A stretch of DNA of 48,172 nucleotides from Actinomycetota bacterium. Lineage in GTDB: Bacteria > Actinomycetota > Actinomycetes > Nanopelagicales > Nanopelagicaceae. The position numbers and the translations under genes are program-made. Under the pieces are notes generated by a model, which saw only the letters and a program-made list of their open reading frames with translations, was not told where the DNA came from and did no database searches. Positions within the stretch are counted from its first letter, which is position 1. Every line of letters starts with the position of its first letter. Below, piece after piece: positions 9,453 to 32,734 of the stretch. The stretch is taken from the NCBI GenBank assembly GCA_010031635.1, contig RGZI01000005.1:1-48172 (forward strand), read 5' to 3'.

Positions 9453-10460
9453 GTGGCTATAGCGAGAGGTTTCTCAAACTCGATTCGAGCTTTCTTCCGT
9501 ACTGAGAGTTCTGGCGGAGTTTTCTTACTCATTGCGGCATTAATTGCGCTGATCGCGGCGAACTCCCCTTGGAGTGCTGGCTACTTAACTTTTTGGCATG
9601 AGTATGAAGTTTTTATCAACGATGGCTTAATGGCAATATTTTTCTTTTTAGTTGGCCTAGAAATCCGCCAAGAGGCGCGGTCTGGTCAATTTCGTGATCC
9701 AAAATCTGCAGCACTTCCAATTATCGCTGCGATCGGCGGAATGGTAACTCCCGCATTAATTTTTGTAATCTTTAATTCAGGATCAGCCACCTCTAACGGC
9801 TGGGCAATCCCAATGGCTACAGATATCGCGCTTGCACTGGGAGCACTTGCGCTTTTAGGTAAACAAATTGACACCTCTTTAAAAGTTTTCTTGTTGACTC
9901 TTGCCATAGCCGATGATTTGGGATCAATTTTGGTTCTAGGGATTTTTTATAGCGATGGATTAAGCCTGATTAAAGTTGCTTCCTCAATTGGAGCAGTACT
10001 TCTTGCTTGGATAATTCCGCTCAGGGGCAGATTTAACACGGAAAAATTAATCAAAATTATTCATCCCTGGAGCGCATTTCTCGTAATTCCACTTTTCGCA
10101 CTTGCCAACGTTGGAATCCAAATTAACTTACCAAATATTGATCAAATGCTTTCTGCGCCAGTAGTAATTGGAATTATCATTGGGCGTGTAATTGGAAAAG
10201 TAGTTGGAATTACATTTTTTGCTTGGGCAGCAGTTAAATTAGGATTTGCAAAATTACCTGCTGCTTTATCATTTAAGGAGATTGCCGGAGCTGGCGCATT
10301 GGCTGGAATGGGATTAACTGTTTCGCTCTTCGTTGCAAAAGTAGCCCTTACCGATCAAAGTGCAATTGCGGAAGTTAAATTTGCGTTATTACTTGCCGCA
10401 TTGATTTCAGGAGTGCTTGGATTAACGTTGCTGCGAATATTCTCAACTAAACAGGATTAA
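9453..10460 (+). CDS. nhaA: Na+/H+ antiporter NhaA, apparently lacking a central segment
   Basis: GWAIPMATDIALALG, LAIADDLGSILV, HPWSAFLVIPLFALANVG. 335 aa instead of about 385; see finding. GTG start 6 nt after TAGAAT. Confidence 0.85.
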   Translation: MAIARGFSNSIRAFFRTESSGGVFLLIAALIALIAANSPWSAGYLTFWHEYEVFINDGLMAIFFFLVGLEIRQEARSGQFRDPKSAALPIIAAIGGMVTPALIFVIFNSGSATSNGWAIPMATDIALALGALALLGKQIDTSLKVFLLTLAIADDLGSILVLGIFYSDGLSLIKVASSIGAVLLAWIIPLRGRFNTEKLIKIIHPWSAFLVIPLFALANVGIQINLPNIDQMLSAPVVIGIIIGRVIGKVVGITFFAWAAVKLGFAKLPAALSFKEIAGAGALAGMGLTVSLFVAKVALTDQSAIAEVKFALLLAALISGVLGLTLLRIFSTKQD

Positions 10461-32663: not shown

Positions 32664-32717
32664 GACCTCAACCGAGGTCACCTTCCTCCTACGGACCGTC
32701 CGGCACGTACCTGCCGG
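32664..32717 (+). promoter_or_regulatory. Two hairpins in the leader of the sugar ABC ATPase gene
   Basis: GACCTC-AACC-GAGGTC (32664-32679) and CCGGCA-cgtacc-TGCCGG (32700-32717). The second ends at the purine-rich Shine-Dalgarno. Confidence 0.5.
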
Positions 32718-32734
32718 GAGAAGGAGTTACCAGC

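Follow-up and report, generated by a model that had tools for sequence, protein, structure and literature searches.

A conserved NhaA homologue without TM VI-VII in freshwater Nanopelagicaceae, predicted to be a minimal Na+(Li+)/H+ antiporter

The stretch of DNA analysed here (the window, 48,172 nucleotides of an Actinomycetota draft genome) carries on its forward strand a gene for a short homologue of the sodium/proton antiporter NhaA, which in the window's genus lies downstream of pepA. The 335-residue product matches a single Pfam-A family, PF06965 (335 bits against a cut-off of 23.5), and also passes the NhaA equivalog model TIGR00773 (286 bits, cut-off 254), while the BASS/SBF profile (PF01758) was not matched in the same Pfam-A search. 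The PF06965 match is split in two, covering profile positions 2-191 and then 218-374. An earlier reading made from the sequence only had described an open reading frame of this length with a missing central segment, and both the reading-frame check and the split profile match bear this out. The features discussed below are the following, all on the forward strand and in window coordinates:

9453..10460, forward strand: coding sequence of the short NhaA homologue, GTG start, 335 residues; orthologues of the same length with the same start region are found in three congeners (G001-G003)
9492..9560, forward strand: TM I (residues 14-36), from the AlphaFold/DSSP model; absent from the 268-residue class
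9597..9602, forward strand: position at which the beta-hairpin is missing (H49 is followed directly by E50), with no counterpart of E. coli residues 44-57
9819..9824, forward strand: T123-D124 (E. coli T132-D133), in the crossing region of TM IV
9912..9917, forward strand: D154-D155 (E. coli D163-D164), the ion-binding aspartates of TM V
9963..9983, forward strand: deletion junction (residues 171-177), ambiguous in placement over this range, from register analysis and spacing
9969..10022, forward strand: residual helix (residues 173-190), mainly in TM VIII register with counterparts of T227, V231 and P238, from model and alignment
10041..10067, forward strand: start of TM IX (residues 197-205), aligned with E252 replaced by I200, H253 by K201, and H256 kept as H204
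10185..10187, forward strand: R245, at the aligned position of E. coli L296, one turn before K300
10197..10199, forward strand: K249 (E. coli K300), in TM X

When the protein is compared with E. coli NhaA, residues ~187-226 are gone, that is 40 residues comprising TM VII together with most of TM VI and the beginning of TM VIII, and the cardiolipin-binding arginines R203/R204 of E. coli fall inside this deleted part; E. coli residues 243-245 are likewise without counterpart. The spacing between D164 and the T227 equivalent is 23 residues in 39/39 homologues of the 335-residue class (mid forms) and 28/28 of a 268-residue class (short forms), whereas E. coli and 21 of the 22 full-length (long) homologues have 63, so that the gap amounts to exactly 40 residues. 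In place of the twelve transmembrane segments of E. coli NhaA there are ten, with TM VI-VII absent, and membership of the NhaA family is claimed here by homology only, as a topological variant.

A breakpoint scan in which both registers were allowed placed the change from TM V/VI to TM VIII register most favourably at residues ~171-177, the latter register being anchored by counterparts of T227, V231 and P238 that are found in ASSIGAVLLAWIIP (consensus ASTIGAV...P). The residual helix that follows TM V, LIKVASSIGAVLLAWIIPLR, is mainly TM VIII, with an ambiguous first turn; a TM VI register, given by the first ungapped profile score, was dropped after the breakpoint scan. The sequence-only reading was right that there is a real gap, but since TM VIII survives in altered form, its junction after GAVLLA lies too far downstream (the junction being at nucleotides ~9963-9983). 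The HATLAGV element that it reported as absent is lost in part, as LKSG and H225 are deleted, but the TLAGV half is present in altered form. Its proposal of recombination between GAVLLA and GVxLA sequences has to be abandoned, as the junction lies elsewhere and, after so long a time, the breakpoints of the event can no longer be read.

Structure models were built with AlphaFold on shallow alignments of only 33 and 26 sequences, and helices were assigned with DSSP. The 335-residue model (pLDDT 81, pTM 0.82) consists of TMs I, II, III, IVa/c, V, VIII, IX, X, XIa/c and XII, and is predicted to fold like NhaA, TM IV and XI being broken and crossing each other (TM-score 0.87 and rmsd 2.2 Å to NhaA structure 7s24). 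Its structural matches rank as NhaA, SLC9C1 exchangers and then ASBT_NM (10 TM, TMt ~0.61); the ten helices and two five-helix inverted repeats of the model recall BASS/SBF proteins, which is a likeness of scaffold and not of membership. The 268-residue model (pLDDT 85.6) has nine TMs, with NhaA as best match (0.77) and rat NTCP next. Counts of Lys+Arg in loops give 17.7 vs 2.3 for the mid form as an N-in 10-TM protein and 11.8 vs 2.2 for the short form as an N-out 9-TM protein, and the C-terminus lies inside in both arrangements, like in NhaA. The models and the positive-inside count agree with the earlier suggestion that two transmembrane segments were removed in frame with downstream topology kept, and the predicted 10-TM NhaA fold makes the minimal, folded antiporter that it had thought conceivable a plausible one. 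The loss of the hairpin, the existence of a conserved 9-TM derivative and the engineered E. coli precedent (see below) did not feature in that reading.

Conservation was scored in an alignment of 39 mid, 28 short and 22 long forms. T132-D133, D163-D164 and K300 are invariant in all three classes, and the equivalents of G299, G303 and G338 are likewise invariant in the mid and short forms. The surroundings of the site differ: the L296 position is Arg in 67/67 mini (mid and short) forms and Leu in 21/22 long forms, the A167 position is Ser in all mini forms aligned, and the F339 position is Leu in mid forms and either Leu or Met in short forms. A thermostable triple mutant of E. coli NhaA carries L296M among its changes (PMC9606361). 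Of the pH-gate residues described for E. coli (PMC9606361, PMC5059715), mid forms keep D11 (as Glu), E78, E82, H256 and K153 (K144 in the window protein), while E252 has become Ile or Val, H243 is gone and H253 mostly gone; R81 is retained in 29/39 mid forms and is Gln in the window protein, from which H225 is deleted. Half of the gate residues are kept in the window protein and half lost; the short class, with TM I gone, has also lost most of E82 and H256.

The gene is not an isolated case. Every congener that gave a match has this form, at 90-94% identity and in the same gene order, no NhaA match being found in congener G004 (78% complete). Several genera of a single freshwater family (Nanopelagicaceae, acI) share the 40-residue gap, closed chromosomes included. 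Among 206 family genomes that are at least 80% complete, 30 carry the 335-residue form, including the single-contig genome G166, and 60 the ~268-residue form (counts made by hand from the match list), the remaining genomes having full-length NhaA, other variants or none. The 268-residue class includes records from Ca. Planktophila lacus MMS-21-148, IMCC26103, IMCC19121 and SCGC AAA044-N04; homologues of this length (L010-L017, L056-L075), which are 9-TM, N-out NhaA proteins by prediction without TM I, beta-hairpin or TM VI-VII, are conserved in many Planktophila-like genomes, again with closed chromosomes among them. A sample of 395 genomes of the class, in whose match list contiguous hits stand first, showed no contiguous mini form outside the family among the matches listed. 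No copies were found in viral contigs, and of 1013 plasmid records with NhaA matches, the 12 listed span ~1120-1280 bp, which is full length. In a 265-column tree from which the TM I and TM VI-VII columns were excluded, a branch with 99% SH-aLRT support separates the mid and short forms together from the others.

In genera other than that of the window, most mid and short genes adjoin glnA, an NCS1 permease gene (PF02133) or both, and CopC, RDD and SDR genes are further neighbours. Full-length NhaA genes of three loci (L079, L082, L084) occupy the same glnA/NCS1-permease slot in opposite orientation, which looks like gene displacement and not like shortening in place. No PF00999 antiporter was detected in 27 of 33 family genomes, including the drafts of the window's genome and three congeners, and mini NhaA may be the sole CPA-type antiporter there, as judged by a PF00999 search. 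A lithium/sodium riboswitch upstream of the window's gene was sought in Rfam without a match.

The closest known system is E. coli NhaA itself (PDB 1zcd, 4au5, 7s24), which is homologous along its whole length (36% identity in the structural alignment) with the same core, broken helices and active-site residues; unlike E. coli NhaA, with its 12 TMs and beta-hairpin, the window protein makes do with 10 TMs, lacks the hairpin, the R203/R204 cardiolipin site and H225, and carries Ile in place of E252. The same two elements have been removed in the laboratory: E. coli mutants lacking the beta-hairpin, TM VI-VII or both are all monomeric, the hairpin mutant is wild-type-like on routine media, and the two mutants without VI-VII grow scantily at pH 7 and not at all at pH 8.2-8.3 in 0.6 M NaCl, a defect that the authors ascribe to lost cardiolipin binding (PMC6881326). 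Padan et al. (2015, PNAS) state in their title that NhaA 'functions using 10 helices'. In contrast to these lab-made monomers, the window form is natural, conserved across species and marked by further changes such as L296R. A different parallel is offered by the BASS/SBF proteins, where the mid form resembles 10-TM ASBT_NM and the short form without TM I resembles NTCP, whose nine helices are equivalent to TM2-10 of ASBT (PMC9242859), but these are bile-acid-type Na+ symporters and not antiporters, with 12-19% identity to the window protein. A 2021 superfamily survey gives PF06965 a single topology of 10 helices plus 2 broken ones, and holds that differences among proteins of one fold type are always found in the N-terminal scaffold (PMC8396727); the loss of TM I in the short class fits that statement, and the natural loss of helices between the two repeats is outside it. 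A literature search covering few subscription papers found no natural NhaA without TM VI-VII.

Taken together, the window protein is probably a working NhaA-type Na+(Li+)/H+ antiporter that nature has pared down to a minimum. It keeps both inverted five-helix repeats (TM I-V and VIII-XII) with the crossed broken helices IV/XI and D163/D164/K300, and does without two elements, the hairpin of TM VI-VII and the beta-hairpin, that in E. coli provide dimer contacts and cardiolipin binding. It would work by the same elevator mechanism, either as a monomer or through another dimer interface. Its pH gate would be reduced by the loss of E252, H253, H225 and H243, with equivalents of D11, E78, E82, K153 and H256 kept. 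The 40-residue deletion most likely took place once, before the genera of the family separated, after which one line of descent would have lost TM I and most of the pH gate, giving the 268-residue, 9-TM form. We infer the antiport activity, oligomeric state and pH behaviour, as well as the single origin of the deletion. The activity could be weak, given how poorly E. coli with the engineered deletions grew at 0.6 M NaCl, and a freshwater life at low Na+ would presumably tolerate a lower capacity under stress.

Other explanations have to be weighed against this predicted antiporter. Collapse during assembly, or a deletion local to one strain as the earlier reading had it, might be suspected in a draft of 224 contigs and 85% completeness; that reading had itself named close relatives as the check, and the same gap is found in all 67 mini homologues aligned, identically in three congeners, in other genera, where it is fixed, and in single-contig genomes, which refutes collapse, rules out recent recombination and leaves this explanation with practically no probability. 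The same negligible weight falls to a decaying pseudogene, which a large deletion might evoke even though it is in frame: dN/dS among the four congeners is 0.07-0.10 over 335 codons without stops, the catalytic residues are invariant, and the gene is under purifying selection. The alternative that deserves most attention, though it is rather unlikely, is that the fold was kept and the substrate or coupling changed (K+, Li+ only or another stoichiometry), so that the protein is no longer mainly a Na+/H+ antiporter. The mini-specific L296R, A167S and F339L around the site, which could alter ion preference, and the loss of E252, H225, H253 and H243 speak for it; the invariance of T132, D133, D163, D164 and K300 in 67 sequences and the score above the NhaA equivalog cut-off speak against.

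Two further explanations concern the missing helices themselves. It is very unlikely that NhaA started out with ten helices and that TM VI-VII are a later gain of its other members: the backbone of the tree is poorly resolved and counts of changes do not separate gain from loss, but TM VI-VII are common to E. coli and to full-length NhaA of many actinobacterial families, their spacing is identical in the aligned full-length proteins, and the mini clade is nested when E. coli serves as outgroup. Still a little less credence is due to a split complex in which another protein supplies the helices; the known dimer contacts are indeed removed along with TM VI-VII and the hairpin, but in the short flanks that were examined no conserved small membrane-protein gene directly adjoins mini nhaA, nor any conserved partner carrying the missing helices.

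A minimal antiporter of the kind preferred here would bear on a question raised by the engineered E. coli result, namely whether TM VI-VII have a role beyond dimer stability, as natural selection has kept an NhaA without TM VI-VII, and another also without TM I, across many freshwater species. These proteins offer natural material for probing the minimal NhaA unit, function as a monomer, the role of cardiolipin and the pH gate apart from transport. They also show that topology varies inside PF06965, as opposed to the single 12-helix topology of PMC8396727, and that losses can reach helices lying between the two repeats as well as those of the N-terminal scaffold. A more tentative proposal, which we hold possible and somewhat short of an even chance, is that NhaA was reduced stepwise in freshwater actinobacteria, to a 10-helix and then a 9-helix, N-out monomeric antiporter, both without the TM VI-VII dimer/lipid element and the latter without most of the pH gate, with proteins of 274-355 residues and other junction lengths (see below) suggesting more than one excision. 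If true, the stepwise-reduced form would be the smallest natural NhaA, in parallel to the ASBT/NTCP pair.

More divergent proteins lacking TM VI-VII were also encountered. A 286-residue group (L177, L215, L216) keeps HPT at the start of TM VIII and has shorter junctions than the main mini clade, relatives of 308 and 274 residues are found at L178 and L095, and L175 (2217-3281, minus strand) encodes a 355-residue form in a different class of Actinomycetota, with no protein of this type in the other searched genome of its genus. Since junction spacing differs among these forms, separate excisions are possible, L175 possibly being an independent case. The best tree places all TM VI-VII-less forms on one side with weak support (49, 76, 24), its deeper part being poorly resolved. 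In genome G216, an NhaA of full-length type (L176, 1253-2260, plus strand) follows the family sequence until shortly ahead of K300, then departs from it and stops prematurely, in the manner of a frameshift. The metagenome-assembled genomes with L113, L125, L162, L169 and L170 have public titles naming Streptomyces griseus or Bifidobacterium breve and are probably mislabelled. Elsewhere in the window, positions 32673-32732 match the msiK cis-regulatory RNA (RF01747, 63 bits).
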